30,995 bases of DNA from a virus, in IMG/VR virus record IMGVR_UViG_3300049456_000051, positions 1 to 30,995 of that record; one strand, given 5' to 3'. How positions within the stretch are numbered: the stretch's first letter is position 1; every line of letters begins with the position of its first letter. Positions 7,935 to 30,995 of this stretch are shown piece after piece. The notes under the pieces are model-generated. The model was not told the DNA's origin, made no database searches, and saw nothing but the letters and a program-made list of their open reading frames with translations. Position numbers and translations under genes: made by a program.

Positions 7935-8542
7935 TGGCGCCCGTCAAGAAACCGGCGCCGCGCGCCGCGCCGAAACCGCCCGCCAAGAAAGGACCGGCCA
8001 AACGCCGTAAGCCGGCCACCGCCAAGGCGGCCGCGAAGCGCGGGCCGCAGAAGCCGTCCAAGCCGGCGGCCAAGCCAAAGCCGGCGGCCAAGCGCAAGCC
8101 GAAGCCGAAGCCGAAGCCTGCGCCGCGGCGGTCAGTCGGCGCCAGCCTCGATCTCCACTCGCTCGGGGCGCGCGTGATCGGCATCTTCGGCACACGCGGC
8201 AACCACACGTTGATCCAGCTGCCGACCGAAGTCGCTGAGCAGCTCTTCGCCGATCCGCTGGCCGCGTCCGGGAGCACGGACGTGATCGCTGCCGCAGAAC
8301 GTGACGTCGCCGCGATCAAGAAGCGCGACAAGGCCCTCGGCGAGTCGGCACTCGCCCGCGCGGCTGTCGCGCTCGCCTTCGAGATCAACCACCCGTGGAA
8401 CTCCGCCACGTCGAAGTCCATGTGCGCGCGTGAGATGCGCGAGACCATCGACCGCCTGCGCGAGCTAGCGCCAGAGGAGGAGGAGGCGGATCAGCTTGAC
8501 GACCTCCGCGCTCGTCGCGCCGCCCGGATCGAGTCTGGCTGA
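7934..8542 (+). CDS. terS: Terminase small subunit with histone-like N-terminal tail
   Basis: A 202-residue protein. Residues 1-66 are almost only Lys, Pro, Ala and Arg, with no acidic residue and repeated KPK, AAK and PAK units, like histone H1 tails. The remainder is a normal actinophage small-terminase body: an ARAAVALAFEINHPWNSATSK helix pair and REMRETIDRLRELAPEEEE, the typical 'select, then RELR-x-LLDxLRELAP' C-terminus. Small terminases recognise the packaging site and regulate the motor. ATG 7934 overlaps the HNH stop, with GAGGG 7 nt upstream. The tail probably adds non-specific DNA affinity. Confidence 0.8.
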   Translation: MAPVKKPAPRAAPKPPAKKGPAKRRKPATAKAAAKRGPQKPSKPAAKPKPAAKRKPKPKPKPAPRRSVGASLDLHSLGARVIGIFGTRGNHTLIQLPTEVAEQLFADPLAASGSTDVIAAAERDVAAIKKRDKALGESALARAAVALAFEINHPWNSATSKSMCAREMRETIDRLRELAPEEEEADQLDDLRARRAARIESG

Positions 8543-10031
8543 GCCGCTCGGAGTCCAGCTCCCGCGAATTTCCTGGGTCCCGCCGTACGTCTCGTCGGTC
8601 GGGCCCGAAGCAATCGAGCTGTGTCGGATGGCCGGGCTCTTCCTCGACCCGTGGGAGGAGCACATCCTCACGGAGTCGCTCGGCGAACGCGCGGACCACA
8701 AGTGGGCTGCGTTCGAGGTCGGCGTGGTCGTTCCCCGACAGAACGGCAAGGGATCGATCCTCGAGGCACGGGAGCTGACCGGGCTCTTCCTGCTCGACGA
8801 GCGCCTGCTGATCCACTCGGCGCACCAGTTCGACACGTCGCTCGAGGGATTCCGCCGGCTGCTCATGCTGATCGAAGACACGCCCGATTTCGATCGGCGT
8901 GTTTACCGCGTCGTCAAGTCGCACGGCGAGGAGGGCATCGAGCTCAAGAAGAACCCGCGGACAGGCCTGCGGCAACGCATCCGGTTCCGCACCCGCACCA
9001 AAGGTGGCGGCCGCGGATTCACTGCCGATTGGCTCGGTCTCGATGAGGCGATGATCCTGCCCGAGACGACGGTGGGTGCTCTCCTCCCGACCCTGTCGGC
9101 AAGGCCGAACCCGCAGGTCATGTACGCAGCCTCGGCCGTCGACCAGGAGGTTCACGACGAGGGCGTCGCACTCGCCCGACTTCGCGAGCGTGCTCTGTCC
9201 CGTAACGATCCGTCGCTCGCCTACTTCGAGCACTCGGTCGACGCCGCGAACCCTGCGGAGGTCACGCTCGCGATGGCGAAGGACCCAGAGCGCTGGGCCG
9301 AAGCCAACCCTGGGCTCGGCATCCGAATAACGACAGAGCACGTCGCTCGGGAGCAGCGATCTATGGACCCGCGCACCTTCGCTGTCGAGCGCCTGGGCGT
9401 CGGCGACTGGCCGCGCACAGATGGCCTTGAGGGCGTCGTCATCACGCCAGAGGCGTGGGCGAGTCGCACCGATCGCGAGTCCTCAGCTCTCAACCCAGTC
9501 TGCTTTGCGCTGGACGTCAACCCCGACCGCACCGCCGGAGCCGTCGGCGTCGCCGGGCTGCGCACCGACCGGCGGTCACACGTCGAGATCATCGAGCACA
9601 AGAAGGGAACCGGCTGGATCGTCCCGCTCGCCGCGGAACTCGTTCTCAGCCACAAACCGGTCGGCGTCGTGTGCGACGCGAGCGGACCGATCGCGTCGCT
9701 GCTCAGCGAGCTCGCCGACGCCGGCGTCGAGGTCACCCTCGTCAACGCCAAGGAGCAAGCGCAAGCGTGCGGCCTTCTCTACGACGCTGTCGATCAGGAC
9801 ACGCTGCGCCACCTCGGCACGCGCGAGCTGACGACGGCGATCGCCGGCGCCGTCAAGCGCCCGCTCGGCGACGCCTGGGCGTGGTCGCGCAAATCGTCCG
9901 CCGTCGACATCTCCCCACTCGTCGCGATCACGCTCGCGCACTGGGGCTCGCAGACGCTCACGCCGCCCAAACCAGAAGTCATCGATCTGAACGAGCTGAA
10001 GGCCGAGATGGAAGCCGACGGCGAGCTCTAA
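8496..10031 (+). CDS. terL: Terminase large subunit
   Basis: A 511-residue packaging motor. The ATPase has Walker A PRQNGKGS (residues 80-87) and Walker B LGLDEA (D183, E184). The RNase H-like nuclease has acidic residues in CFALDVNPD (D340, D344), VVCDASG (D394) and near AVDISPLVA (D471). The start is a TTG at 8496 with AGGAGG 9 nt upstream, inside the small-terminase gene (47-base overlap, different frame). It pumps genomic DNA through the portal and cuts it. It is of the HK97/actinophage Terminase_1-like group. Confidence 0.95.
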   Translation: MTTSALVAPPGSSLAEPLGVQLPRISWVPPYVSSVGPEAIELCRMAGLFLDPWEEHILTESLGERADHKWAAFEVGVVVPRQNGKGSILEARELTGLFLLDERLLIHSAHQFDTSLEGFRRLLMLIEDTPDFDRRVYRVVKSHGEEGIELKKNPRTGLRQRIRFRTRTKGGGRGFTADWLGLDEAMILPETTVGALLPTLSARPNPQVMYAASAVDQEVHDEGVALARLRERALSRNDPSLAYFEHSVDAANPAEVTLAMAKDPERWAEANPGLGIRITTEHVAREQRSMDPRTFAVERLGVGDWPRTDGLEGVVITPEAWASRTDRESSALNPVCFALDVNPDRTAGAVGVAGLRTDRRSHVEIIEHKKGTGWIVPLAAELVLSHKPVGVVCDASGPIASLLSELADAGVEVTLVNAKEQAQACGLLYDAVDQDTLRHLGTRELTTAIAGAVKRPLGDAWAWSRKSSAVDISPLVAITLAHWGSQTLTPPKPEVIDLNELKAEMEADGEL

Positions 10032-11957: not shown

Positions 11958-13210
11958 AAAAGCCGACGCAGGCGGAGTTGGACCTCGAGGGCGCTATCCG
12001 TGGCGCCGTGCGTGCCGACGCGAGCTTTGACATCGCGCGCAGACACATCGCGCGAGAGGCTGAGTCGCTGAAGCTCTCCGAGCTGATCCCCGAGAACTGG
12101 CGCGAGGACGGGTCACTGAAGAACGCGGCCGGCGTCTGGTCGACCTCCGAGTTGCGCGACACGGCAAACGACGTCTTCACGGCGCTAGAAGGCGCGATCA
12201 GCGACCTCTACGAGGGCGAATACTCCTACTACGCCTGGGTGCAGGATTGGTACGGCGGCGGAACGACGGAGGAACCGTACATCGTCGTCTTCCGCGCTGG
12301 CGGTGAGCTCTACGCCGCCGAGTTCACCTACGACGACGACCAGAAGATCGAGATCGGCGAGAAGGTCAAGGTCCGGCCGATCACGCTGTACGTCGAACGT
12401 GAGCAGAAAGCGTCGCCGGAGAAGCGCACGGCAGCCCACGACCTCGAGTGGCGCAAGTCCAAGGCCCGGTCGCTCGGCAAGGGCACGCCCGAGCGACGCG
12501 ACGTATTCGAGCTGACCTCGATCTCCGCCGAGGTCGAGCTGCGCGCGGATGGTGAGGACGAGGGTGTCCTCGTCCTCACCGGCTACGCCTCTGTCACGGG
12601 GACTCCGTACGACGTCGGCTTCTACCAGGAGACCGTCGAGCGTGGTGCCTTCAAGCGCACGCTGAGCAACAGCGATCTCGACGTGCAGCTGCTCGTCAAC
12701 CACATCGGCCTGCCGCTCGCGCGCACTACCTCGGGCACGCTCACGCTGAGCGAGAACGAGAAGGGGCTGCTTGTCCGAGCCGAACTGGATCCGGAGGATC
12801 CGGACGTCCGCTCGCTCGCCCCGAAGATGCGCCGCGGCGACGTGACGGAGATGAGCTTCGCCTTCCGCGTGCTCGATCAGGAGTGGAGCGACGACTACAC
12901 CGAGCGTTCGCTGACCTCGCTGGACATCCACCGCGGCGACGTGTCGGTCGTGTCCTACGGCGCGAGCCCAACCACGAGCACAACGTTGCGCTCTGAGGAG
13001 GCCAATGAGTTCATCGCCACGGTGGAGAGGCGCAGCGGCGAGAGCCTGCCTGCTGCAGCCAAGCGCCAGCTATTCGCCGATCTGACCGGCCAGGAGCCGA
13101 CGGAGGTTGAGGAGGAGCAGCGCGAGGTCCCATCTCCCACGCCGCTGGTCATCCCTGACTACACCAAGCGCGCCCGCCTGCAGCTCGCGGCGCTTGGAGT
13201 CCGGCGATGA
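11954..13210 (+). CDS. Prohead protease with extra N-terminal domain
   Basis: A 418-residue protein, about twice the usual size. The protease core (about residues 186-345) has GYASVTG, FKRTL, catalytic H250 in LLVNHIGLPLA, and S301 in VTEMSFAF, as in HK97 gp4-type serine proteases. Residues 1-170 form an added region: a helical part, then SYYAWVQDWYGGG, PYIVVFRAGGELYAAEFTYDDDQKI and KVRPITLYVERE, resembling the 'Y-V-x-D-W-D-x-x-V-V-F' beta domain fused to some prohead proteases. It cleaves the capsid N-terminal arms during maturation. GGAGG lies 7 nt before the ATG. Confidence 0.9.
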   Translation: MKKPTQAELDLEGAIRGAVRADASFDIARRHIAREAESLKLSELIPENWREDGSLKNAAGVWSTSELRDTANDVFTALEGAISDLYEGEYSYYAWVQDWYGGGTTEEPYIVVFRAGGELYAAEFTYDDDQKIEIGEKVKVRPITLYVEREQKASPEKRTAAHDLEWRKSKARSLGKGTPERRDVFELTSISAEVELRADGEDEGVLVLTGYASVTGTPYDVGFYQETVERGAFKRTLSNSDLDVQLLVNHIGLPLARTTSGTLTLSENEKGLLVRAELDPEDPDVRSLAPKMRRGDVTEMSFAFRVLDQEWSDDYTERSLTSLDIHRGDVSVVSYGASPTTSTTLRSEEANEFIATVERRSGESLPAAAKRQLFADLTGQEPTEVEEEQREVPSPTPLVIPDYTKRARLQLAALGVRR

Positions 13211-14409
13211 GTGGCGAGGCGGGCGACACGGTCATCGAGGACGTGCCACGGATGGATCTCGCGACGGCGAGCAATGAGGATCTCGTCGCCGCAGCGCGCG
13301 GCGGCGACTACCGGATCGTCCGTGAGCCTCGTACGTACGAGCGCCACGGCGCGCACTCCTACTTCCAGGACCGCTTTCTGGCCGCTCGTGGCGAGAGTGC
13401 CGAGGCCGAGGAGCGACTGCAGCGCCATGCGGTTGAGTGGCGTGTCGACACCCGCGAGCGTGAGCTGCGCGCGATGCTCGCGGTGGACGCACCCTTCGAG
13501 TTGCGGGCTACGCCGAGCTGGACTCCGGGCGAAGGTGGGTACTTCGCCCCGCCGCTTTGGCTGATCTCGTACTACGCCGACATCCCTCGACCGGAGCGAG
13601 TGCTCGCGAGGCTCGCGCCGAACTTCCTGCTGCCGAAGGGGTTCCAGGAAATCAACCTGCCGGTGCTCACCGGCAGCGGCCCGGCAGCTGACCCGCAGAC
13701 GCTTGACACGCCGGTCCTCGACACGGACATGACTGACTCGGCTGCGAAGAGCTCGGTCGTGACAATCGCCGGAACGGAGGACGTGCCGCTGCCGATGCTC
13801 GAGCAGTCTCCTGCCGGAGCCTCCCTTGACTGGCTGGTCGGGAAGGCGCTCGAAGCGGCCTACCAGGAACAGCTCGAGCAGCAGCTGATCAATGGCAGCG
13901 GCGTCAACCAGATCCTCGGGCTGTTGAACGTGAAAGGCATCAACGCGATCGCCTACCCCGGGGCGCCAGAAGGCACGACGCTTTACCCGGTGCTCGGCAA
14001 GGCGATCGCCGCGATCGGGCGCAAGCGCAAGATCCCGATGGAAGCCTGGCTGATCAATAGCCCCCGGTTCGCGTGGATCGCGACGTCTGAGGACAAACAG
14101 GAACGCCCGCTGCTGCTCTCCGATTACGCGGGTGACTTCCCGACGGCCGGGCTTGCAAGCCGCCCTGTGTACCTCGACGACGGGATCCCGACACTCGCCA
14201 ACGGGCAGGAGCCGATCATCGCGTGCTGCCCCTCGGATCTGATGGTCCTTGAGTCCGACCCGATCATCGACGTGATGACCCAGCCGCTCGCCGGTTCGAT
14301 GGGCGTCCGCATTCAGACCCGGCGCTATGTCGTCGGGATCACGGCGCGCTACCCGACAGGGATCAGCGCGATCACGGGCGCCGGCATGGTGCCCGTCGCT
14401 GGCTACTAG
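13207..14409 (+). CDS. Major capsid protein 1 (HK97 fold)
   Basis: A 400-residue HK97-fold capsid protein, ATGA-coupled to the protease. After an N-arm of about 110 residues comes GGYFAPPLWLIS (residues 110-121), then VVTIAGTEDVPLPMLEQSP, GKALEAAYQEQLEQQLINGSG and the closing RRYVVGITARYP segment, all standard for this fold. It is clearly paralogous to the next gene: PPLWLIS, TIAG-x2-D-V/I-P, LEQSP and an N-arm EP-x2-Y-x-RH motif are shared. The N-arm is much shorter than its partner's and lacks the long acidic coiled coil. It may be the shell or a minor vertex or mixed capsid component. Confidence 0.9.
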   Translation: MSGEAGDTVIEDVPRMDLATASNEDLVAAARGGDYRIVREPRTYERHGAHSYFQDRFLAARGESAEAEERLQRHAVEWRVDTRERELRAMLAVDAPFELRATPSWTPGEGGYFAPPLWLISYYADIPRPERVLARLAPNFLLPKGFQEINLPVLTGSGPAADPQTLDTPVLDTDMTDSAAKSSVVTIAGTEDVPLPMLEQSPAGASLDWLVGKALEAAYQEQLEQQLINGSGVNQILGLLNVKGINAIAYPGAPEGTTLYPVLGKAIAAIGRKRKIPMEAWLINSPRFAWIATSEDKQERPLLLSDYAGDFPTAGLASRPVYLDDGIPTLANGQEPIIACCPSDLMVLESDPIIDVMTQPLAGSMGVRIQTRRYVVGITARYPTGISAITGAGMVPVAGY

Positions 14410-14558: not shown

Positions 14559-16292
14559 ATGCGACACCTGACCAAGGCCGAAGAGCGCTGGGGCAGCCCG
14601 CTCCCGCCGCTTGCGGGAGGCGATCCCGCACTGACGGAGCCGTCGAATGAGACGGAGCCGGAGACCGACGAGCGGTCGCTCCTGCAGAAGATGCTCGACC
14701 GCCGGGCTGAGCTCGCCGGCGAGGTCGACCCGCTCATCGAGGAGCGAGAGAAAGAGCACGCCGAGTTCGAGGCGCGCGAGGCCGCAGAGAAGGACGAGGA
14801 CAAGCCGACCGACGAGGAGCGCACCGTCTTCATCGAGGCGGAGGAGGCGTTCAACAAGCGCGTCCAGGCGAACCTCAAGGAGATCAAGTCGCTCGACTTT
14901 CGGATCGAACGGCAGGAGCTCGTTGAGCACGGCCGCGAGCTCGCGACCCGAGCGAGCGAGCGCGAGGCGAGCACGAGCGTTGTGATCACGCACGAACCGG
15001 AGGTCTACGGCCGTCACCGCGAGGCCAAGGGCGCCTCCTATTACCTTGACCTCGCGGCGAAGATGCGCCCCGACCTCCGGTCGGAGCTCGGCTCGAAAAT
15101 CGATGGCTTCGCCGAGCGCCTGGAGAAGCACGGCAAGATGATGGACGAGCTGCTGCCCAAGCGCGAGCAGCAGCGCAAGCGTGTCGCCGAACGCCAGATC
15201 GAGCGCGCCGAGATGGAGACCCGGGGACGTCTGGGGATCCAGCGGCGCGGGCTTGACGTCAGCCCGTTCGAGAAACGGGCGCCGTCGCGCGAACCCGGTC
15301 AGGGTGGCTACGCGGTTCCCCCGCTGTGGCTGATCTCCGACTACCTCGAGTTCCTGCGTCCGGGTCGCGTCGCTGCTGGCCTGTGCCGGCAGATGCCGCT
15401 GCCTCCGGGCACGGACTCGATCAACATCCCGAAGCTCACCACGCCGACGGCGGTCGCGATTCAGACGGCCGACAACGCGCCGGTGGTCTCCCAGGACATC
15501 AAGGACAACTACGTCAACGCGGCGGTCAAGACGATCGCCGGGTTCGCGGACATCCCCGTGCAACTGCTCGAGCAGTCGCCCGGGACGATCATCGACCAGG
15601 TGATCACCCGCGACATGATGGCCGCGTACGACGTCGCCCTCGACAAGCAGGTCATCTTGGGCAAAGGCGTCGGAGCGCCGCTCTCCGGTGGCGAAATCAA
15701 GGGCATCTACCCGAACACCAACTGGGAAGCCAACACAGTCACGTGGACCGCGGCGTCGCCGAAAGCACAGGGCTTCTTCCAGGTGCTCGGCGCGATGGCG
15801 TCCAAGACGGCCCAGACGAGGTTCAACCTCAAAGACTTCACGTTCCTGGTTCACCCCAGGCGTGGATTCTGGGCCTTCACCGCGGTCGACACCGTCGGCA
15901 GGTTCCTCGTTGGCCAGGACGACGGCGGCTTCAGCAACTTCAACGCTGACGCGATCTACGGGTCCGAGGACGCGCCCTTCGAGGGCTATCTCGGGAAAGT
16001 CCCGTTCGGGCCGAAGCTGTACATCGACGCGAACATGCCGACCACAGACGCCTCCGGAGTTCCCGGCGCCGGCGCGGCCGACATCGGGATCGGTGCGATC
16101 TGGGATGACCTCTGGCTGATGGAGGGCGACATCCGCACGGACGTGTTCGACCAGACGCTCTCGGGCACCCTGGAGATTCGCTTCCGGCTCTACAACTACG
16201 TCGCGCTGTTGCAGCGCTACGGGCCGTCGGTGACGATCGCCTCCGGGACCGGCTTCGCCGCGCCGGAAACCGAAGACAAAACGCCGTACTAG
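14559..16292 (+). CDS. Major capsid protein 2 with scaffold-like N-terminal domain
   Basis: A 577-residue HK97-fold capsid protein. Residues about 35-135 are an acidic, charged coiled coil (ERSLLQKMLDRRAELAGEVD and following) like the scaffolding delta domain removed by the prohead protease. The conserved EP-x2-Y-x-RH arm motif follows, then a second helical stretch to about 240. The mature fold starts near GGYAVPPLWLIS (249-260), with TINIPKL-like strand, KTIAGFADIPVQLLEQSP, and the end RFRLYNYVALLQRYG. With a scaffold and a terminator directly after it, this is probably the main shell subunit. Its Shine-Dalgarno is AAAGGA. Confidence 0.93.
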   Translation: MRHLTKAEERWGSPLPPLAGGDPALTEPSNETEPETDERSLLQKMLDRRAELAGEVDPLIEEREKEHAEFEAREAAEKDEDKPTDEERTVFIEAEEAFNKRVQANLKEIKSLDFRIERQELVEHGRELATRASEREASTSVVITHEPEVYGRHREAKGASYYLDLAAKMRPDLRSELGSKIDGFAERLEKHGKMMDELLPKREQQRKRVAERQIERAEMETRGRLGIQRRGLDVSPFEKRAPSREPGQGGYAVPPLWLISDYLEFLRPGRVAAGLCRQMPLPPGTDSINIPKLTTPTAVAIQTADNAPVVSQDIKDNYVNAAVKTIAGFADIPVQLLEQSPGTIIDQVITRDMMAAYDVALDKQVILGKGVGAPLSGGEIKGIYPNTNWEANTVTWTAASPKAQGFFQVLGAMASKTAQTRFNLKDFTFLVHPRRGFWAFTAVDTVGRFLVGQDDGGFSNFNADAIYGSEDAPFEGYLGKVPFGPKLYIDANMPTTDASGVPGAGAADIGIGAIWDDLWLMEGDIRTDVFDQTLSGTLEIRFRLYNYVALLQRYGPSVTIASGTGFAAPETEDKTPY

Positions 16293-17000: not shown

Positions 17001-17261
17001 ATGCACGCCCGCGCCCGCATGTTCCTCCAAGAGCGCGAAGACGCTCGAGCGCGCGGTGACCGCGGGGTGGAGCGCTGCATGAACGTGGAGCTCGCCCGGA
17101 TGGGGTACAGGGACGTTCCCGTCCGGGGTGAGACCACCACGGTCGAGCCCAAAGAGAACACCTCGCAGCCCAAGCCGAGGCCGAAACGGCCGAAGGCGCG
17201 GTGCGAGCACGGAAGTGTGCCCGAGCGCTGTCCCGTGTGCACCGAGGAGATCGCAGCCTGA
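17001..17261 (+). CDS. Hypothetical small zinc-knuckle protein
   Basis: An 86-residue protein with a helical Arg-rich N-terminal half, a Pro/Lys-rich linker (QPKPRPKRPKARC) and a C-terminal knuckle CEHGSVPERCPVC (C-x8-C-x2-C). No clear Shine-Dalgarno precedes ATG 17001; an ATG at 17019 is an alternative start. The stop overlaps the next ATG as TGATG, and the GAGGAG within its final codons serves that gene. It is an unusual small zinc protein amid structural genes. Function unknown. Confidence 0.55.
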   Translation: MHARARMFLQEREDARARGDRGVERCMNVELARMGYRDVPVRGETTTVEPKENTSQPKPRPKRPKARCEHGSVPERCPVCTEEIAA

Positions 17262-17611
17262 TGGCCGGTCAGCTGACGATCGGCGGCCAGTCCGCCGGCA
17301 TGCTCTCCGGCTCCAAGGAGATCGGGCCCATCACGATGCAGGGCAACGCGATCGTTGGCCAGGTCAGCGACGTGCAGCTCGTCGTGGGCGACAGCACGAT
17401 CCCCGTGCCAGCCGGCAAGACCGCCGTCTGCATTGCCTTCACGCCTGCCTTCGAACCGGGCGAAGTCAAGATCCGCACCAACCTCAATGCATCCGATGCG
17501 GGGCTGCCGATCCTTGCGACGGGCTTCACCGTCTTCCCGATCCCAGCGGCCGTGACGTCGCTGATCCTGCACGCCACCGCCGTGGCGAACGTCGAGCTGT
17601 CGTTCATCTAA
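17261..17611 (+). CDS. Hypothetical beta-rich virion protein
   Basis: A 116-residue protein from ATG 17261, GAGGAG 11 nt upstream. It is beta-rich with few charged residues: GQLTIGGQSAGMLSGSKEIGPITMQGNAI, VQLVVGDSTIPVPAGKTAVCIAF, and a final VTSLILHATAVANVELSFI. This looks like a compact beta-sandwich, such as a decoration or fibre-attachment protein. It is immediately upstream of the large fibre gene (11 nt gap), suggesting they act together. Family unknown. Confidence 0.6.
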   Translation: MAGQLTIGGQSAGMLSGSKEIGPITMQGNAIVGQVSDVQLVVGDSTIPVPAGKTAVCIAFTPAFEPGEVKIRTNLNASDAGLPILATGFTVFPIPAAVTSLILHATAVANVELSFI

Positions 17612-17622
17612 GGGAGGTCCCG

Positions 17623-20256
17623 GTGGACAACTACAAGGACTTCGCGCAGAGCACCGTCGCGGTCGCGCCCGTTCCAGCGACCACGGACACGAAACTCACC
17701 GTGAAGCCGGGGGATGGCGCGAAGTTCCCCGAACCGCCCTTCAACGCCGTCGTCGCACCCGTCAACACGGTCCCCGTCGACGAGAACGCAGAGCAGCTGC
17801 GCGTCACCGCGATAGAAGGGGACGTCTTCACCATCGAACGTAGACAGGCGGGCAGCCTGCCGCGGGGCATCCTCGCCGGAGACCAGATCTTCGCGGGCGT
17901 CACAGCCAAGACGATCGCCGACCTCGCCGCGCTCGTCACCACAGAGGCCGCAGCGCGCGCTGTAGCCGTGAGTGCTGCGGAAGCCGCCGGCTCGCAGGGT
18001 CTCGTCCCGACCGCGGTCAAGACAGCCGCCTACGAAGCCAAACCGGGCGACTACGTCCCCGTCGACATCTCCGGCGGCTCCGTCGCGGTCGCACTTCCAA
18101 ACGCGCCTGCTGACAAAACGCGGGTTGGCCTGAAGATCGTGAAAATCGCCGGGACTCCCGGCTCGACGTCGCTCACGATCAATCGCGCCGGAACGGACGT
18201 ATTCAACATCGCCGGCGGGAGCACCGCGCTTACTCTGTCGGCGAAATCCCAGGGTGTTCTGCTCCAGTACCAGCACTCCTCGGGGATCTGGTACGTGCAG
18301 ACGACCGACACGCCGCTGAACTCGCCGCTCGGTGCAGCCATGCTCGGCGGCGACGGCACTATCGGCGGTCCCGGTGGCTCACTGGTCGCGGGCGGCAGCA
18401 TCATCTTCGCGCCTGCGCCGTCGGGCGACGAAACGGGAGCAGCCGACACTGCCGCGATCGCCGCGGCGATGCCCGCAAAAGGCTCGCTCGTACTCCGGGC
18501 CAACGCGCCTTATTTCGTCACAAGTCTCCCGGATATAGGACCCGAGCAGGGAATCATCTGCCTGGGTCTGCCGATCGTCAACATGGTCGGCAACGGCGTC
18601 TGCCTGCACATTCACAACGCGGCGATGTCCACCGCCGGTGGCGAAGCCGAGTTCACCAAAAACATGCCCGGCCGCATGGACCCGTTCATCATCGACGGCA
18701 GCAAAGCCGGGGCAAAAGCCGTCGGCGTCCAGATCGGCGACATCAACGACTTGACGTGGCATGGCCCGATCGTCCGGCACTTCACGGGCGCGGAAGCGGT
18801 CGGCTGGCTCCTGAAGTCCGAAGTCGCCTGGTGCGAACGCAATAACCTGGTCGGCGTCTCCGTCAACAACACGGTTTGCGTCCAATTCGACAACGGGGGC
18901 GCAGGCACGGGCGCATTCGACTACTCCCGGTTCGACTTCTCGATCCAGGCGTTGCCCAAACAGCATGGCCTCGTGATGCAGAACGCGATCGGCCTGTGGG
19001 GTTCGAACCTCAGGTTGAGCGGGAACTGCTTCACAGCGGTCGGTAACACGGGGGTCGCCTGGAAGCTCGGCGCTGACAACTCGAGCGTCCAGATCCTCGG
19101 CTCCCACATCGAGGTCGGGCTCGAGACCGACGGCACCCAGGGTGTCGGGCACATCACGGTCGAACGCGGCACCAAAGCCGAAGTCAGCGCCCAGGGTGTC
19201 CTGTCTTACAAGATAGGTGGATCCGTCGGCTGGGCCGCCGGGAACATCACACAGCCCGACAGCCGGTTCGCGTTCAGCGGCATCGTCAACATCGACGAAA
19301 ATCTTGGGCAGAACAAGCAAGGCGAGGGACTCAACGTATTGGGCGGCAGCACCTGGTCACGCGGGTTCACCACCGTTACCGAAGCCAACGTCGCCATCAA
19401 AGTCCAGTCCGGCGACTACTTCACCGCAACCCTGGCGTCCGGCGTCAACACCCTGAAGCTCGAAAACAGCACGCAGGGCCGCGCCCGCCGGATCCTCGCC
19501 GTCCTCACGCAGCCAGCCGCCGGGGAACCCGCCACTCTCAGCATCGCCGCGCCCGGTAACAATCTGCAAGGCAACGCCCAGGTCGTCAGCACCGCCGCCG
19601 GCGGCTCCATCGTCCTTCAGGCAGCGCACAGCGCGGTCGACGTAGTCGAGCTCGCCACCGTCGACGGGCAGCACTGGTACATCCGGATCCTCGGTCCCCG
19701 CGCCGCGCAGGACGCGTTCCTCGGCATCATTCGTCCCGTCTATGCCGCGAGCATCATCCCGTCCACCGAATCGGTGATCGGCACCGCGTTCCGCGCGTTC
19801 TTTGCCCGGTGCATTGTCCCCGTCACCGGAACCCTGCACGACATCACCGTGTTCAACGGGACCGTCGTGAACGGCAACCACAATGCCGCCGTATTCGACA
19901 CCGGCCAGGCCGAAGCTGGCCACTACACATCCCTCTGGGAATCCGGGTCAGTCGCGGCCGCCGGCGAAAACAAACCCCAGGTCGTCGGCGATCCGGCCCT
20001 GGCGGTGACCGCCGGTCAGCATCTGATGCTCGCGATTATGAACAGCGGCACCACCCACAAGTTCGGGGAGGTCCCAACCGCCAGCCATACGGGGTGGATG
20101 CAGCTCCCCGGTAGCTTCGCCCCCACCGGCGGCGGAGCGTCCCCCAAGATGCTCGCGCAGCACAATTACGCTGAATTGAAATATGCCGCGATCGCGGAGG
20201 CCGAAATGGAAGCACAGGGCAGCCCGCCACTGGCGATCATTGGTCGGATCGTCTAG
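17623..20256 (+). CDS. Large beta-helix fibre or spike protein
   Basis: An 877-residue protein starting at GTG 17623 with GGGAGG upstream; longer in-frame starts run through another gene. Residues 1-105 form an attachment domain of the type with 'NAEQLRVTAIEGDVFTIERRQAGS', common at phage fibre N-termini. Then come a short Ala-rich coil, a strand-rich domain, and a pectate-lyase-like parallel beta-helix (about 265-590: IIFAPAPSGDETGAADTAAI opening, then IIDGSKAG, many NG/SG turns). The C-terminus (about 700-877) looks like a receptor-binding jelly roll. It may be a tail spike or a head fibre, since it lies between head and neck genes. Confidence 0.8.
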   Translation: MDNYKDFAQSTVAVAPVPATTDTKLTVKPGDGAKFPEPPFNAVVAPVNTVPVDENAEQLRVTAIEGDVFTIERRQAGSLPRGILAGDQIFAGVTAKTIADLAALVTTEAAARAVAVSAAEAAGSQGLVPTAVKTAAYEAKPGDYVPVDISGGSVAVALPNAPADKTRVGLKIVKIAGTPGSTSLTINRAGTDVFNIAGGSTALTLSAKSQGVLLQYQHSSGIWYVQTTDTPLNSPLGAAMLGGDGTIGGPGGSLVAGGSIIFAPAPSGDETGAADTAAIAAAMPAKGSLVLRANAPYFVTSLPDIGPEQGIICLGLPIVNMVGNGVCLHIHNAAMSTAGGEAEFTKNMPGRMDPFIIDGSKAGAKAVGVQIGDINDLTWHGPIVRHFTGAEAVGWLLKSEVAWCERNNLVGVSVNNTVCVQFDNGGAGTGAFDYSRFDFSIQALPKQHGLVMQNAIGLWGSNLRLSGNCFTAVGNTGVAWKLGADNSSVQILGSHIEVGLETDGTQGVGHITVERGTKAEVSAQGVLSYKIGGSVGWAAGNITQPDSRFAFSGIVNIDENLGQNKQGEGLNVLGGSTWSRGFTTVTEANVAIKVQSGDYFTATLASGVNTLKLENSTQGRARRILAVLTQPAAGEPATLSIAAPGNNLQGNAQVVSTAAGGSIVLQAAHSAVDVVELATVDGQHWYIRILGPRAAQDAFLGIIRPVYAASIIPSTESVIGTAFRAFFARCIVPVTGTLHDITVFNGTVVNGNHNAAVFDTGQAEAGHYTSLWESGSVAAAGENKPQVVGDPALAVTAGQHLMLAIMNSGTTHKFGEVPTASHTGWMQLPGSFAPTGGGASPKMLAQHNYAELKYAAIAEAEMEAQGSPPLAIIGRIV

Positions 20257-22594: not shown

Positions 22595-24022
22595 ATGCTC
22601 AACGTGAAAGTCACAACGGGCGAGACGGCTGCCGCCAGAGGTCCGTTCCCCTCCGCCGCAACGACGATCGTCGTCGGCAAGTTCGACCAGGGGCCTGCCA
22701 TCCCCGTGCAGATCCGCAGCATGGCGCAGCTGATCCAGACGTTCGGCCCGCGCAGCAACGTCAGTGCTCCGGCCTATGACTCCGTGCAGACGATCCTCGC
22801 GATCGCGGAATCGCAGTGCTTCGTGATGCGCGAGACCGACGCCACGGCCACCACGGCGAAACTGGTCCTCAAAGACGCTGCGGCGAAGCCGACGATCGTC
22901 GTCAGCGCCAAGACGCCCGGCGTCGATGGCAACAACCTGAAAATCGAAGTGGTCGTCGCCGCCGGCAAATACACGATCGTCGTGAGCAACGCCGAAGGAG
23001 TGCTCGAAACGAGCCCCAAATTCACGACGCAGGCCGAATCGATCGCCTGGTCAGTCGCATCGCCCTACGTGACGCTCGCCGCCTCCGCCGAATCGGAACA
23101 CACAACGGAACCGCCCGTCGCTCTTGTGGCCAAAGCGCTGTCCGGCGGCGCCGACGCGAGCGACCTCACGGAAGCGTCGATCGCGGCAACGCTCGCGCTG
23201 ATCCCGAAGAGCGTCGGAGAGGCGCAGCTGATCGTTCCCGGGGAAACCGGTGCTACGGCGCACAACGCGATGGCGCTGCACTGCCGAGAAAACAACCGGT
23301 TCGCCTGGTTCGACCTCGCCGACTCGGCGGTTGCCGCGACGCTGATCGGCGAGAAGAGCATCGAAGCCGTTCTGGCGGGCTACGGAGGCTCGCTCTCCTC
23401 GAGCGCGATCATCCCCGGCCTCACGCCGGGCACCACGCGCACCGTCCCCGGCTCGGCGGTCATGGCCGGCTTGTGCGCACTGGTCTCCAAGCTCGGCAAC
23501 AACAGCGTTGCGCCGTCTGGGGCTGATTGGCCGATTCCCTACGTCCTCGGCTTCACAAACTTCTTCACCGAAGCGGAAGCCGAAACGCTGCAGCTGGCCG
23601 GGATCACGCCGGTCGTCGAAGAACGCGGCATCTTCTGCCTGCAGGGGTTCTACACGTGGCTCAGCCGCGAATCAGACGCGATCTTCTGGCAGGCGTCTGC
23701 GGCCAGGGAGCGGATGGCGCTCGTCGGCGAGGGCGAAATCATCACCGGCCGCTACCGGCGCAAGCTGCTCGGCGGCCGCAAGTCGGTTCTCGGCAAGTTC
23801 CAGATGGAGCTGCAGGGCCTGATCACTCGCCACTGGGAAGCGGGCGCGCTGTTCGGCGAAACCGCTCCCGAAGCCGGGACGGTGGACATCGGCGAACCGA
23901 TCAACACGCCGGCGTCGCTGCAGGCCGGTGAACTCGGAGGAGAACTCGAGGTCAAGATCGCTCCGTTCGCGGACAAGGTCAACCTCAAACTCGTGACCGC
24001 GCCGATCAGCGAACCGCTCTAG
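22595..24022 (+). CDS. Contractile tail sheath protein
   Basis: A 475-residue tail sheath protein, the key evidence for a contractile tail. It has the characteristic AIIPGLTPGTTRTVPGSAVMAGLCALVSK stretch, an N-terminal TIVVGKFDQGPAIPVQI with SMAQLIQTFGP, and the C-terminal RYRRKLLGGRKSVLGKFQMELQGL block involved in sheath handshaking. The middle (about 105-185, KPTIVVSAKTPGVDGNNLKIE) is an inserted beta domain. Its ribosome site is AAAGGGG. Sheath subunits wrap the tube and contract on adsorption. Confidence 0.93.
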   Translation: MLNVKVTTGETAAARGPFPSAATTIVVGKFDQGPAIPVQIRSMAQLIQTFGPRSNVSAPAYDSVQTILAIAESQCFVMRETDATATTAKLVLKDAAAKPTIVVSAKTPGVDGNNLKIEVVVAAGKYTIVVSNAEGVLETSPKFTTQAESIAWSVASPYVTLAASAESEHTTEPPVALVAKALSGGADASDLTEASIAATLALIPKSVGEAQLIVPGETGATAHNAMALHCRENNRFAWFDLADSAVAATLIGEKSIEAVLAGYGGSLSSSAIIPGLTPGTTRTVPGSAVMAGLCALVSKLGNNSVAPSGADWPIPYVLGFTNFFTEAEAETLQLAGITPVVEERGIFCLQGFYTWLSRESDAIFWQASAARERMALVGEGEIITGRYRRKLLGGRKSVLGKFQMELQGLITRHWEAGALFGETAPEAGTVDIGEPINTPASLQAGELGGELEVKIAPFADKVNLKLVTAPISEPL

Positions 24023-25111: not shown

Positions 25112-25581
25112 TGGCCACTACGACCGTACTGAGCAGCGGCAAGGAGGGCGTCGACCTCAAGGAGTTCCGCCAGCTCACCCGTGACCTCAAGCGGTTCAAG
25201 GTGGACAAGCCGCTGAAAAAGACGCTCCGCGCGGCGGGGCAGCTCATCGCCGAGGATGCCAAGGCGAACGCCGAGGAGTACTCGAAGAGCGTCCCGCCAT
25301 CGATCAAGGTGAGGATCCGGGGCACGAGCATCTCGGTCGTCGCCGGCGGCGAGGGCGTGCCGCTCGCTGGGCTATTCGAGCTCGGCAACAAGGGCAAGGG
25401 GAAATCACAGGTCGCTGCGAAGAGCGGAGTCTTTAGGCATCCAGTTTTTGGCAGCGACGTTTGGGTCGAGCAGGAGATGCACCCCTACCTGCTCCGTGCG
25501 GCCGCGCGCAACGCACGCGGCATCGAACACTTCGAGGGCGCGATCGTGGCCGAAGCGTTCCGTGAAGTCGGGTGGCGGTGA
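25111..25581 (+). CDS. HK97 gp10-like tail completion protein
   Basis: A 156-residue protein. It has the gp10-like pattern: an N-terminal helix (LTRDLKRFKVDKPLKKTLRAAGQLIAEDAKANA), RIRGTSISVVAGG, then GLFELGNKGKGKSQVAAKSGVFRHPVFGSD and MHPYLLRAA, where 'FE-x-GN-x-G...FRHP-x-FG' is diagnostic. In most phages this gene lies with the neck genes; here it is between the chaperone and the tape measure. GAGGGG precedes its ATG, and its stop overlaps the tape-measure start as TGATG. Confidence 0.78.
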   Translation: MATTTVLSSGKEGVDLKEFRQLTRDLKRFKVDKPLKKTLRAAGQLIAEDAKANAEEYSKSVPPSIKVRIRGTSISVVAGGEGVPLAGLFELGNKGKGKSQVAAKSGVFRHPVFGSDVWVEQEMHPYLLRAAARNARGIEHFEGAIVAEAFREVGWR

Positions 25582-27155
25582 TGTCTGAGGACCGAGTTGT
25601 CAAGACCACCCTCGTAATCGACGAGCACGGGGCCGTACGGGCCGTGCACGCGGTCGGAAGCGAGTCTGGCCACACCGAATCCAAGCTCGGCAAGCTCGAC
25701 AAATCGATCAAGGGGCTCGGCCATTCGTTCGGCGGCCTGAAAGGGCTCGTCGCCGGCGGGCTCGGGCTCGGGACGATCGCGTATGGGCTAAAAAGCGTCC
25801 TCGGGACGACCAGCGAACTCGCCGAGGAAACGCACAAGTTCCATACGATCACGGGCATCGGGGGGCAGTCCTCGCTCTTCTACACCGCGGCGCTGAAGGC
25901 GCGCGGGATCGGAGCCGAAGCGGGCGGCAACGCGTTCAAGTTCCTCGCCAAGAACATCCAGATCGCCGAACGCCAGGAACAGACCTATGGGCTCGCCCAG
26001 GGCAAGGCGACGGCGAAACACAAGATCGCGACCGGCCTGCTGGGCGTCCAGGCGACCGCGTTCAAACGGCTCGGGATCGATCTGACCAGCTTCTCCCACC
26101 TCTCCGAACAGGGCAAGTTCGAAGACATCACCCACAAGTTCGAATCGATGAAGGACGGTGTCGAAAAGACGCGTCTGGAGGTCCAGATCTTCGGCCGCGG
26201 CGGGACGGCGCTCTCGTCCGTGCTGGACAAAGGCGCGCTCAGCCTCAGCCACGCCGACGACATGGCCAAACGGTTCTTCCCGACGCTCAAAGGCGGCACG
26301 CACGAGCTCGAGGAACTCCAGGAAAAGCAGACCGAATCGAAAATGGCCTGGGAAGGTCTCGAGTTCACGCTCGGCACCCAGGTGGTGCCCGTCTTCAACG
26401 CCGTTGCGGGGGAATTCTCGCACCTGATCGGCGAAGCCGAGAAGGGCAAAGGGCCGCTCGCCGAAGTCGAGCACGTGTTCGAAGGGATCGCGCACTTCGG
26501 CGAGAGCGCGTTCAAGTTCGTGAAGGGCGTCGCCGACCAGTTCGGCATCCATCTCGGCGCCGGTACCCTCGGCGCCGGACTCGTCGCCTTGGAGGCCGCG
26601 CACAGGGCGAAAAAAATCACACACACCGCGAGCGCGGCGAAGAAAATCGCCGAATACGGCGTCCACCACCCCGAGACGCTGCCGGTCACACTGGCTGCAG
26701 CTGGAGCCACGGCCTACGGGCTGGACGTCTACAAGAGCCGCGACGAACTCGCCGCGCATGCGAAGGGCGCCCTGGCGATGCTCGGCGGCGGCCCGACGTC
26801 TTTGAGCGCGATCGAAGAAGGGATCCTCGGTCGGGTTCCGCACGGCAGCGGCGGCGGCGGTCGCTACGCGCACGCCGGCGGCAGGGCGGAGAAGGGCTCG
26901 CTCAGTCCAGCCGAATCAGCGGCGGTCTCGCGACTGCTCGAACGCCCACAGGACCTGACGAGCAAGACCGCACTGACGGCGGGGGAGCTCGCCGCGATCA
27001 CCACGGCGATCGAACGGGCCATGGCCAGTCACAACACCGAGATCTACGTCGACGGGAAAAAGCTGGCCGAAGCACTCCGGCAGAACCCGGGCGCGAGCCG
27101 GCATCTGTCTGAAGCCGTCACGCACTACGCGCAGAAGCAGGCGGCACGACGGTGA
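25581..27155 (+). CDS. Tail tape measure protein
   Basis: A 524-residue protein, short for its class, starting at ATG 25581 (an upstream GTG would overlap the previous gene more). It is glycine/alanine-rich and helical, with hydrophobic stretches (GLKGLVAGGLGLGTIAYGLKSVLG near 45-68; LPVTLAAAGATAYGL near 370). A tape-measure core has LKARGIGAEAGGNAFKFLAK and EKTRLEVQIFGRGGTALSSVLDKGA, the phage_tape_meas type pattern. At about 0.15 nm per residue, 524 residues predict a tail near 80 nm. It also assists DNA entry through the host membrane. Confidence 0.88.
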   Translation: MSEDRVVKTTLVIDEHGAVRAVHAVGSESGHTESKLGKLDKSIKGLGHSFGGLKGLVAGGLGLGTIAYGLKSVLGTTSELAEETHKFHTITGIGGQSSLFYTAALKARGIGAEAGGNAFKFLAKNIQIAERQEQTYGLAQGKATAKHKIATGLLGVQATAFKRLGIDLTSFSHLSEQGKFEDITHKFESMKDGVEKTRLEVQIFGRGGTALSSVLDKGALSLSHADDMAKRFFPTLKGGTHELEELQEKQTESKMAWEGLEFTLGTQVVPVFNAVAGEFSHLIGEAEKGKGPLAEVEHVFEGIAHFGESAFKFVKGVADQFGIHLGAGTLGAGLVALEAAHRAKKITHTASAAKKIAEYGVHHPETLPVTLAAAGATAYGLDVYKSRDELAAHAKGALAMLGGGPTSLSAIEEGILGRVPHGSGGGGRYAHAGGRAEKGSLSPAESAAVSRLLERPQDLTSKTALTAGELAAITTAIERAMASHNTEIYVDGKKLAEALRQNPGASRHLSEAVTHYAQKQAARR

Positions 27156-27934
27156 CACCGCCCAAGCGCGCGGTCCTCACCGGGCAGCTGATCGGCTTCT
27201 TCGGTCACACGGCGACGGGAGACTCGCGTACGTTCAAAGTGCTGGCTGGAGACGGCGCGCCCACTCCCAAGGGGGGCTGGGCGAAGATCGCCACGATCGA
27301 CCGTCCGGGTCGAGTGGGCTACACCGTCTCGACCGGCTATGACCCGATCGCCATGACCGTGCCGATCCTCTTCGACGCGGTCATGAAGACGGCCAACCGC
27401 GAAGACATCGAGCTGAACATCCTCGCGCTCGAATGGATGGCGGGCCGCAGCCCCAATCCGAAGGGCGGCGAAGTCAAGGGCGAACCGCCCTACGTCGAAG
27501 TGTTCACCGTCAACAGCCACGGCAACACGATCCCGCTCGTGCCGCGGCAGTTCCAGAGCGAACCGGGTCGCTCACGGCAGTGGTGGATCACTGACATCGA
27601 ATTCGACTCGACCGAGGAAGGCTGCAAACGCGACTCCGGCGGTGCACGCGTGCGCCAGGCGGCTGTAGTGACGCTCGAGGAGATCGTCAGCATCCCCAGC
27701 ACGCTCGCGCAGAACCGCAAAAGCCGGGACGCGGTCAAGGGCAAGTACAAGACGGTCCACTCCACTGCGAGCGCGAACACCATCAAAAAGGTGGCCGTTC
27801 GCGAAGGGATCCCAAGCTCGTGGAAAGCGATCCTGGAGGCCAACCGCAAGCTGGGGGCGAGCGCTGAAAAGGCGCTCAAACCGGGCACGAAGATCAAGAT
27901 CCCACTCACCGCCTTCCGCCAGGTCCCCGCGTGA
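27152..27934 (+). CDS. LysM-domain baseplate protein
   Basis: A 260-residue protein starting at a GTG that overlaps the tape-measure stop. Residues 1-185 are beta-rich (WAKIATIDRPGRVGYTVSTGYDPIAMTVPILFD, DIELNILALEWMAG, WWITDIEFD). Residues about 197-251 are a LysM domain (KYKTVHSTASANTIKKVAVREG, ILEANRKLG, LKPGTKIKIP). This layout fits the gp53/XkdP-like spacer that joins tape measure, tube and hub and can bind peptidoglycan. It is translationally coupled to the hub gene downstream. Confidence 0.85.
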   Translation: MTPPKRAVLTGQLIGFFGHTATGDSRTFKVLAGDGAPTPKGGWAKIATIDRPGRVGYTVSTGYDPIAMTVPILFDAVMKTANREDIELNILALEWMAGRSPNPKGGEVKGEPPYVEVFTVNSHGNTIPLVPRQFQSEPGRSRQWWITDIEFDSTEEGCKRDSGGARVRQAAVVTLEEIVSIPSTLAQNRKSRDAVKGKYKTVHSTASANTIKKVAVREGIPSSWKAILEANRKLGASAEKALKPGTKIKIPLTAFRQVPA

Positions 27935-30900
27935 CCCAGCCGGATCCGCACATCGTCAGCCGGTTCGTCGCCAAGCAGATCGTCAAGAGCGCGAAGAAGG
28001 GCGCCCCCGCTGTCGAGGACCTCGCCAAGGCGATCAGCGAGATCGAACTCGAGACGCAGATCCTCGGCGCGAGCTTCATCAAAGTCACGGTGATCGATCC
28101 GGACTGGGCCCTGATCACCTCCGGCTGGCTGAACGTCGTCGAAGGGCTCGTCGATCAGATCGAGGTCGAATTCCCCGAAAAGAGCGGCTGGTTCTGGCGG
28201 CTGTGTGCGATCGATGGCAGCACCGATCGCACGCAGGCCAATCTCACGCTCACCTTCGAGGACCGCATCGTGGCCTACATGCGTGAGTACTGGGGGCCGA
28301 AGACGGCGCCGCCGGGGACCTCGACGCGGGCGCAGTTCATCCGCGACCTGGTGCGCGAAGTCGGCCACAAAGGCGAACGGCCGATCGACTTCCGCTGCAA
28401 AGCGATCAACAAGGTCCAGCCGATCGAACCGAGCGCGGAAGAAAAGACGGAAGGGCTGAAGACCGCGGCGGCAAAAGACGCCAGCGAAGCCAAGGCGAAC
28501 AAGGCGCCCGGGCTCAACGCTGGCTCTCCTGCGACCGTCAAGGGCCAGAAGCTCAACGCGCAGCAGGTCGTGGAGGCCAACACCCTTTCCTCCACGGCAG
28601 ACGGCCTCAACGCGCCGCTCGTGGCCAAGGAAGCGCTGATGTTCGCGGCGATCGCCGAGAGCTCGCTCGGAGCTGGGGCTGGCGCATTCACGCCGAACTC
28701 GCTCGGCTTCTACGGCACGCTGCAGGGCAACTCCCAGACCTGGCCGGATCCGCACGACACGAAAGGCATGGCGACGAGCTTCCTGCTCGGCGGCAAGGGC
28801 TTTCAGGCCGGCGGGGCAATCGCGCTTGCGCATAGCGGTGTGACGGACCCCATCGAGATCGCCGTCCGGGTCGAGGCGCCGAGCGTGTGGCCCGACAATG
28901 CCTACGCGAGCGAGTCCGGCTACAGCAACTTCCTGCCCGAGGCCAAGCAGATCGTCTCTGCCGGTGGAGGGACGGCCGAAAGCGCGGCCGGCGAAAACGT
29001 CAGCGACGTGGGCCAGCTGACCCGCGGGACCACCGACAACCCCGACGAGGACAACTGGGAATGCTCCTCACGCCTGGCCGCGCAGGTGGACTGGTCGCTC
29101 TTCTCCAACGGCAACAGCCTGTTCTACATGGACGGGCCGGAAATGCTCAAGCAGCGGCCTGCACTGCACGTCAACGTGCCGGCCAACAGGATCACCAAGG
29201 CGAACGGCACGGTCGAAGACGGCGTTCTCCAGACGCCGCTGACGTTCACGTTCGACAACTGCCTGGCGCTCGACACGCCGATCCCAACCCCCGACGGCTG
29301 GACGACGATGGGCGCCCTTGAGACCGGCGACGCGGTGTTCGGCGCCGACGGGCGTCCCGTGCTAGTCGATGGCGTGTCGCAGGTGCACGAGGGTCGTCGC
29401 TGCTACCGCGTTTGCTTCAGCGATGGCACGTCCATCGTGGCGGACGCCGGGCATCTGTGGGAGACGCGCACCGAACGTACGTCGCTGGCACACGCGGCAG
29501 GCGGCGACAAGCGACTCGGCATCTACACGACTGAGGAGATCGCAGGCACTCTCCGCGGCTACGGCCCGAGGTTTCCCCATAATCATCGGGTCAAGGTCGC
29601 CGAGCCGCTTGACCTCGCGGAGCGCGAGTTGCAGATCAACCCCTATATCCTGGGCTACTGGCTCGGAGATGGCCGGGCAGCGGGGCCGCAGATCACGGTT
29701 GATGATGCCGATCTCCCGCACCTTCTCCGCGAGATCGACGCAGCTGGCTATTCGCATCGCGCCAAGCAATATGCTGGCACCGGCTTCTCGACTAAGCCGG
29801 AATGGCTGGTCACGGTGTCTCCGCGCCGGCCCTACCGCAGGAGCCGACGCAACGATGACAGTCTCACGGGTCGACTGAGAGCACTCGATGTGCTTGATAA
29901 CAAGCACATCCCCGCGCCGTACCTGCGGGGTTCACGTGAGCAGCGGACGGCACTTCTCCAAGGCCTGATGGACTCGGACGGCACGATCGGCAGAGTCTGC
30001 TGCCTACAACTCGGCGACAGGACACTTGCCCTGGGGGCGCTCGAGCTGGTACGCAGCCTGGGCTTCCGCGTTCGGTGCAGTGACGAGGACCCTGTGGGTG
30101 CCGGCGTCAAGCGCCGCTATCGGATCACGTTCTCGGCGCGCGATCACACGGGCGCATTCCGCCTTGCACGCAAGGCTGATCGGTACGTGCAGCGCGTCAA
30201 CCGGACATCGCGCAGTCACTGCGCCCATCGGACGATCGTCGCCGCTGATCCCGTTCCCTCGGTGCCGGTCAAGTGCATCGCCGTGAGTACGGCGGATCAT
30301 CTCTATCTCGCCGGCGAGGCGATGATCCCAACGCACAACACCCAATTCCAGTACCGCCAGACGCACAAGGTCAAGGGCAAAGTGCAGCGCAAGTCGCGCG
30401 CGAGCAAGCCCTCCACGCCCGCCGAGGTGCGCCTGCCGCTGGTCTGTGGCCTCGAGGAGTACCGCGCCGGCGACGTCATCGAATTCCAGCACTCAGGTCC
30501 GATCGACGGCCGCTGGATCGTCTCCAACGCGACCCGCAACTGCCTCAAAGACATCTTCACGACCCTGATCCTGCAGCCGCCGTTGGAACCGCTCCCCGAG
30601 CCCAAAGGCACGCCTGGCGGGGAAGCCACATCGGCGGCGATCGGCGGGGGTGTCAGCTCGGTCGTCGAAGCCGCAAAGCGGTCGCTGACCGAAAAGAGCA
30701 AGTACGAATACGTCTACGGCGGTGGTCGAGAACCTGGCGCCGACCTGTTCGGTCCAGCTCCCCGCCGGATGGACTGCAGCTCCTGGACGACGCTCTGCTT
30801 CAAAGCGGCTGGTCAGCCCGACCCGAGCGGCCTGAACTACAACCCGATCGGGACGACGGAAACGCTGATCAACAACGCCACGAAGGTCGCCAACCCGCAG

Positions 30901-30995
30901 CCCGGCGACCTCTGCCTGTTCGGCGAAGTCGGTCACACGACCCACGTGACGATCTACGTGGGGGGCGGCAAGGCGATCTCAATGGGCGCGCCCGG
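27931..30995 (+). CDS. Tail hub / cell-wall lysin with intein, 3' end beyond window
   Basis: Open for more than 1021 codons from GTG 27931 (GTGA overlap). Residues 1-210 are a hub domain of XkdQ/gp27 type (FIKVTVIDPDWALITSGW, QIEVEFPEKSGWFWRL, LTLTFEDRIVAYMREYWG). Residues about 225-345 are lysozyme-like, with probable catalytic E243 in FAAIAESSLG and GFYGTLQGN, RVEAP. A second hub stretch (NPDEDNWECSSRLA...) is interrupted after residue 443 by an intein, then resumes TQFQYRQTHKVKGK. The C-terminus is NlpC/P60: MDCSSWTTLC (C949) and GHTTHVTIYVGGGKA (H1005). It therefore combines two wall-cutting activities on the tail tip. The mature product after splicing lacks 360 residues. Confidence 0.92.
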   Translation, partial: MTQPDPHIVSRFVAKQIVKSAKKGAPAVEDLAKAISEIELETQILGASFIKVTVIDPDWALITSGWLNVVEGLVDQIEVEFPEKSGWFWRLCAIDGSTDRTQANLTLTFEDRIVAYMREYWGPKTAPPGTSTRAQFIRDLVREVGHKGERPIDFRCKAINKVQPIEPSAEEKTEGLKTAAAKDASEAKANKAPGLNAGSPATVKGQKLNAQQVVEANTLSSTADGLNAPLVAKEALMFAAIAESSLGAGAGAFTPNSLGFYGTLQGNSQTWPDPHDTKGMATSFLLGGKGFQAGGAIALAHSGVTDPIEIAVRVEAPSVWPDNAYASESGYSNFLPEAKQIVSAGGGTAESAAGENVSDVGQLTRGTTDNPDEDNWECSSRLAAQVDWSLFSNGNSLFYMDGPEMLKQRPALHVNVPANRITKANGTVEDGVLQTPLTFTFDNCLALDTPIPTPDGWTTMGALETGDAVFGADGRPVLVDGVSQVHEGRRCYRVCFSDGTSIVADAGHLWETRTERTSLAHAAGGDKRLGIYTTEEIAGTLRGYGPRFPHNHRVKVAEPLDLAERELQINPYILGYWLGDGRAAGPQITVDDADLPHLLREIDAAGYSHRAKQYAGTGFSTKPEWLVTVSPRRPYRRSRRNDDSLTGRLRALDVLDNKHIPAPYLRGSREQRTALLQGLMDSDGTIGRVCCLQLGDRTLALGALELVRSLGFRVRCSDEDPVGAGVKRRYRITFSARDHTGAFRLARKADRYVQRVNRTSRSHCAHRTIVAADPVPSVPVKCIAVSTADHLYLAGEAMIPTHNTQFQYRQTHKVKGKVQRKSRASKPSTPAEVRLPLVCGLEEYRAGDVIEFQHSGPIDGRWIVSNATRNCLKDIFTTLILQPPLEPLPEPKGTPGGEATSAAIGGGVSSVVEAAKRSLTEKSKYEYVYGGGREPGADLFGPAPRRMDCSSWTTLCFKAAGQPDPSGLNYNPIGTTETLINNATKVANPQPGDLCLFGEVGHTTHVTIYVGGGKAISMGAP
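29260..30339 (+). mobile_element. Intein with LAGLIDADG homing endonuclease
   Basis: Residues 444-803 of the hub precursor are a complete intein. Block A: CLALDTPIPTPDGWTTMGAL, starting with nucleophile Cys444. Block B: GTSIVADAGHLW, with H508. Endonuclease motifs: YILGYWLGDG and LLQGLMDSDG, both acidic residues kept. Blocks F/G: VKCIAVSTADHLYLAGEAM then IPTHN, with terminal His802-Asn803 and the +1 residue Thr804. The frame is uninterrupted, so splicing and endonuclease both look functional. Codons ending in A or T (GAT, CGT, CTT, TAT) are more common than in the flanks, suggesting separate origin. It is 360 residues (1080 bp). Confidence 0.95.

Follow-up and report, generated by a model that had tools for sequence, protein, structure and literature searches.

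Class 3 inteins are recognized by the WCT signature, which consists of Trp at B:12, Cys at F:4 and Thr at G:5 (PMC3196547, PMC5050341, PMC6195587). The link between this signature and the splicing mechanism is experimental in relatives of the intein described here (PMC6195587, PMC7664689, PMC3196547). The strict definition of class 3 additionally demands that Cys1 is absent, and inteins that carry WCT together with Cys1 are left out of strict surveys (PMC7891396). A LAGLIDADG endonuclease is present in 82.5% of class 3 inteins (PMC7891396). Conserved sites are the typical locations of inteins (PMC5050341), and in phages the described host genes include those for portals (PMC5050341) and a minor head protein (PMC7468147). 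Here, we have analyzed an insert in a tail gene of a virus. The window, by which we mean the whole stretch of DNA that was analyzed, is a linear virus record of 30,995 bases. We put at about 85% the probability that the insert is a full-length homing intein, probably an active one, that belongs to the phage WCT (class 3) lineage and lies in the hub-lysin gene of a contractile-tailed phage, a reading based on sequence comparisons.

Results

The last gene of the window runs for 1021 codons without a stop (27931..>30993), and judged against its nearest hub relative, a 60 kb IMG/VR contig (L002), about 24 C-terminal residues are absent. It closes a contractile-tail cluster with the order sheath, small tail genes, tape measure, LysM-type gene and hub-lysin gene. 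The last steps of this order are kept in relatives, in which the LysM-type gene upstream of the hub is likewise conserved. The features of the host gene and its surroundings are as follows.

22595..24022, plus strand: tail sheath gene (contractile tail), phrog_23, E 1e-16
25572..27155, plus strand: tape measure gene, phrog_9483, E 7e-5 (L002 homologue phrog_8462, E 7e-15)
27152..27934, plus strand: LysM-type gene immediately before the hub gene, weak LysM match over residues 223-251, below cut-off
27931..30993, plus strand: tail hub-lysin precursor gene, one open frame that begins with GTG, truncated at the window end
27931..29259, plus strand: N-extein, 443 aa, 80% identity to the intein-free L002 over residues 1-443
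28531..28968, plus strand: lysozyme-like (SLT transglycosylase) domain, approximate limits, matches in L002 and L087
30340..30993, plus strand: C-extein, 218 aa to the window end, 83% identity to L002
30706..30978, plus strand: NlpC/P60 peptidase domain, Pfam E 2.4e-8, above cut-off

The N-extein comprises an N-terminal hub-like region, the SLT/lysozyme-like domain and the start of a second conserved region, while the C-extein opens with the +1 Thr and a conserved TxFxYRxTHKVKG segment. The first-pass annotation had placed the insert between a lysozyme-like domain and an NlpC/P60 peptidase of the same polypeptide, and this placement is right: the peptidase is matched by Pfam, SLT scores above the Pfam cut-off in the hub homologue L087, and the L002 fragment has a weak transglycosylase match (phrog_29757, E 0.019). 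From synteny and the lysin domains, that is the place after the tape measure and LysM genes in a contractile-tail cluster and the presence of one or more muralytic domains, we infer with good reason, hub fold aside, that the product is a tail hub. Direct matches to hub families, however, are weak or absent. The hub families phrog_177 and phrog_196 gave weak matches to one homologue each and no match in a six-frame search, hhalign of the hub to a Listeria phage hub matched the peptidase domain only, and with regard to a gp27/XkdQ-like hub fold, the AlphaFold2 hub model built on 3 sequences reached a pLDDT of 28. No hub relatives were confirmed on scanning bacterial or archaeal genomes. One hub homologue (L091, 5980-8124) lacks an NlpC/P60 match and seems to end in another kind of domain, which on inspection by eye may be an M23-like peptidase; hence the terminal lysin domain of the hub seems exchangeable. 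Elsewhere in the window, the major head family phrog_2263 is matched by two adjacent genes, 13207-14409 (E 9e-21) and 14559-16292 (E 3e-27), which are possibly capsid paralogues.

The insert corresponds to residues 444-803 of the hub-lysin precursor and contains no stop. Its first codon is TGC at 29260, and it has the following parts.

29260..30339, plus strand: intein, 360 aa, Cys1 to His359-Asn360, +1 Thr (profile, sequence, fold and empty-site comparisons)
29431..29460, plus strand: block B, Asp62-x-x-His65 and Trp67 (W of WCT), His65 and Trp67 invariant in aligned relatives
29650..29673, plus strand: LAGLIDADG motif 1, LGYWLGDG, acidic Asp137, conserved in relatives
29953..29982, plus strand: LAGLIDADG motif 2, LLQGLMDSDG, acidic Asp240, present in all aligned relatives but one
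30274..30276, plus strand: Cys339 at block F:4 (C of WCT), invariant, predicted to act as the first nucleophile
30331..30339, plus strand: block G, Thr358 (T of WCT), penultimate His359 and cyclising Asn360, from the alignment of relatives

Blocks A, B, F and G are all present, with His65, His359-Asn360 and a nucleophilic +1 Thr. PHROG profiles that contain inteins match residues 444-803 with an E value of 2e-33, whereas the Pfam matches to Hom_end and LAGLIDADG_3 are weak; the one to Hom_end (E 4e-4) narrowly misses the curated cut-off. In a phmmer search against PDB sequences the first 70-83 and the last 35 residues align to mycobacterial DnaB inteins, the best structures being 6rix and 6bs8 (E about 1e-28). 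A tblastn search with the intein matched 698 phage records, none of them at 60% identity or above. The AlphaFold2 model, built with 50 relatives, has a pLDDT of 91.8 and a pTM of 0.91 and shows a Hint fold; its Foldseek matches include PI-SceI (E 3e-18) as well as 6bs8 and 6rix, both of them class 3 DnaB inteins (E about 1e-9, TM by target 0.81-0.86). Taken over sequence and model, these comparisons identify residues 444-803, well past chance, as a complete intein that includes a LAGLIDADG homing endonuclease, and profile, sequence and fold agree on this identity. The boundaries that had been proposed at 29260-30339 are exact. A second intein was considered in the methyltransferase gene 1071-2870, where the profile match has a long gap; no Pfam intein family matched there and none was seen on reading.

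In PHROGs the hub-lysin gene scores best against 'terminase large subunit' (E 3e-33), and this is due solely to the intein columns in these profiles; the genuine terminase of the window lies at 8496-10031. Automatic naming would thus mislabel the hub-lysin gene as a terminase.

The insertion is exact and in frame. At the junction, L002 reads TYTFDN-TTFQYR, while the window reads TFTFDN-[360 aa]-TQFQYR, and other relatives have empty junctions such as FDN-TSF and FDN-TAF. As the first-pass annotation had proposed, intein-free homologues can be aligned across FDN/TQF: all 12 distinct hub homologues (L104 and L109 are identical, and the remote L110 is left out of the count) lack the intein and read straight across the conserved junction (FDN|T). 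An insert that is a conserved structural domain of the hub is ruled out by these homologues, 0/12 of which carry the 360 residues. In the 12 intein-free sequences, Asp at the second position ahead of the junction and Thr at the first position behind it never vary. Among the first eight homologues, 9 of the residues 440-469 at the site are invariant; a 30-residue window of the hub has 3.7 invariant positions on average, and 7% of such windows reach 9. No second copy of the hub intein was found among the hub loci in IMG/VR, nor does this intein occur anywhere in the L002 or L084 contigs.

The host gene was compared with those of other inteins of this kind. When 65 non-duplicate extein pieces of IMG/VR relatives were compared with PHROGs, every one of the commonest families was either terminase large subunit or without a name; among ten extein pieces examined closely, the others were exonucleases and portals, the latter from at least three families. 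The portal proteins that carry WCT inteins (L042, L057, L059, L065 and L082) fall into at least three PHROG families, and their inteins occupy several insertion sites. Of the 698 phage records, 60 were sampled stepwise down the ranking, many being unnamed or named after the endonuclease; their genes encode terminase, exonuclease, helicase, an antirestriction protein, HNH endonuclease and others, and no tail gene was found as a host in these 60. The literature searched, with incomplete coverage, likewise yielded no intein in a tail hub or lysin, and a tail hub-lysin as intein host gene is apparently unreported. The intein interrupts the gene of a virion protein for cell-wall penetration, and this host is unusual among the classified relatives, as had been claimed. 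The broader claim that phage inteins are rare in structural genes was too strong, since portal and minor head inteins exist.

The splicing class was assigned from the conserved residues. Trp67, Cys339 and Thr358 of the window intein make up the WCT triplet. Block B (Asp62-x-x-His65 with Trp67) has numbering identical to that of M. smegmatis DnaBi1, and Cys339 is equivalent to Cys118 of that intein (phmmer alignment; PMC6195587). In an alignment of 81 sequences, namely the window and its relatives with some near-duplicate rows, so that counts are of sequences and not of events, Trp67 is found in 81/81, Cys339 in 81/81 and Thr358 in 80/81. Residue 1, in contrast, is not conserved in the lineage (Ala 35, Gly 12, Pro 9, Gln 7, Leu 5, Cys 3, Ser 3). 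The window intein belongs to the WCT lineage and most likely uses the class 3 splicing route, while the presence of Cys1 keeps it outside strict class 3, which allows neither Cys nor Ser at position 1. Cys1 is probably dispensable for splicing.

Cys1 is not unique to the window intein within the WCT lineage. It is also carried by L031 (intein 5001-5993) and L040 (intein 5001-5999), both in terminase large subunit genes and on a separate branch of the intein tree. The neighbours of the window intein in this tree have Ala, Gly or Pro at residue 1, and this suggests that its Cys1 was gained secondarily; the intein shares <50% identity with every relative found and sits alone on a long and poorly resolved branch. 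It is conceivable, though rather unlikely in our view, that we are dealing with a hybrid in which Cys1 and Cys339 are both usable as first nucleophiles, either as a bridge between class 1 and class 3 or after Cys1 was regained. If true, this would be relevant to the debate on how class 3 arose, either from a class 1 phage intein that lost its Cys1 or separately, and the hybrid would sit in a virion protein where failure of splicing is presumably lethal to the particle.

A plain class 1 intein, as which the insert had first been annotated, would form the linear thioester by Cys1 with Cys339 merely assisting. Cys1 is indeed there, class 1 calling for Cys1 or Ser1, and so are His65, His359-Asn360 and the +1 Thr. 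However, block B reads DxxH instead of TxxH and position F:4 is Cys339 instead of the usual Asp (TxxH and Asp are typical of class 1 but not absolute), and the Cys at F:4 is found in all relatives. The close relatives are all WCT inteins, most of them without a nucleophile at residue 1, and the structures that the window intein most resembles in sequence are those of class 3 mini-inteins. Conservation of WCT leads us to reject class 1 as the most likely reading; the original assignment is probably wrong, and we regard it as quite unlikely. The combination of Cys1 and WCT falls between the published class definitions: it is missed where absence of Cys1 is demanded and read as class 1 by motif.

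The codon usage of the intein deviates from that of its surroundings. GC3 is 0.76 in the intein against 0.88 and 0.85 in the exteins, and the synonymous codon score is -1.10 against -0.79 and -0.82, less like the structural genes. Part of the gene 17128-20256 scores as low as the intein. This gene of 1042 residues lies between the head and tail genes and has weak tail-fibre matches. The codon usage of the intein is consistent with acquisition. Two LAGLIDADG motifs with their catalytic acids (Asp137, Asp240) are present, and the sporadic presence, the divergent codon usage and the intact endonuclease together point to a recently acquired homing parasite.

It had also been suggested that splicing could time the release of the active hub. 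A regulatory switch of this kind, for example a redox-sensitive disulfide between Cys48 and Cys339, would draw on the fact that these residues stand at positions equivalent to a pair in M. smegmatis DnaBi1, in which a Cys48-Cys118 disulfide is documented (PMC6195587). Yet Cys48 is common throughout the lineage (56/81) whatever the host gene, and therefore gives no sign of a control specific to the hub. A needed timing role is argued against because the intein is absent from all homologues, every other phage with this hub doing without it. The codon usage looks acquired and the LAGLIDADG motifs are intact. Nothing seen points to regulation, and we consider a switch very unlikely.

Discussion

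We return to the preferred reading, a homing intein of the WCT lineage that splices by the class 3 route. The intein interrupts the hub-lysin directly after Asn443 and ahead of the invariant Thr. Once the precursor has been translated, Cys339, together with His65 and Thr358, is expected to attack the peptide bond between Asn443 and Cys444, so that the N-extein would be held by Cys339 as a thioester and then handed to the +1 Thr. Cyclisation of Asn360 would release the intein, and the exteins would be ligated as ...TFDN-TQFQYR..., giving back the uninterrupted hub. Once released, the endonuclease would cleave uninterrupted hub genes carried by co-infecting relatives, close to the conserved TTCGACAAC|AC site, after which the intein could be copied into these genes. 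Its persistence would be due to a site that encodes residues which the hub cannot readily change, rather than to a regulation of assembly.

Two further explanations can be weighed against this reading. The insert might be a non-splicing domain or a decayed intein, in which case the hub would be used with the insert or be dead. That only a single copy is known speaks for this, but all splicing residues are intact, no stop interrupts the frame, the predicted fold is complete and of high confidence, and the exteins are intact at 80-83% identity to the intein-free relative, making this explanation highly improbable. An assembly artefact that joined a foreign intein to the hub is conceivable for a gene at the end of a metagenome contig and yet extremely improbable, as both junctions are codon-exact and in frame, both exteins match one relative, and a chimera would very unlikely hit both splice junctions exactly.

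The locus extends the target genes of phage inteins to a tail protein for cell-wall penetration, at one of its most conserved sites. The window and L002 form a matched natural pair of interrupted and uninterrupted genes (80-83% identical) for tests of splicing and homing.

Several known systems resemble parts of this locus. A C-terminal NlpC/P60 domain in a tail hub is also found in the hub-hydrolase CD1368 (8v3w_H) and in the 'baseplate hub 2 protein' of a Listeria phage, the gene of which comes after the tape measure; unlike the window protein, both are without an intein, and the similarity is in the peptidase domain only. The best full-length fold match of the intein, PI-SceI (the S. cerevisiae VMA intein), shares the arrangement of a Hint splicing domain with a LAGLIDADG endonuclease. 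In contrast to the window intein, PI-SceI is a class 1 intein of a eukaryotic vacuolar ATPase, and the two are 15-18% identical. The portal inteins, both those among the IMG/VR relatives (L042, L057, L059, L065, L082) and those of C1 mycobacteriophages (PMC5050341), and the minor head intein (PMC7468147) likewise interrupt virion structural genes at conserved sites. The five from IMG/VR belong to the WCT lineage like the window intein, while the published ones are likened here by host gene and not by class; all of them differ from the window in lying in head or connector genes and at other insertion sites. The closest systems are the class 3 (WCT) inteins of mycobacterial DnaB-1 (6bs8, M. smegmatis DnaBi1; 6rix, M. 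chimaera DnaB1) and of mycobacteriophage TerL and RecB (PMC5050341). They have in common with the window intein the WCT triplet, the DxxH block B, the Cys at F:4, the HN terminus and a Thr or Ser at +1. What sets the window intein apart from them is the Cys at position 1 and its host, a tail hub-lysin instead of a helicase, terminase or nuclease.
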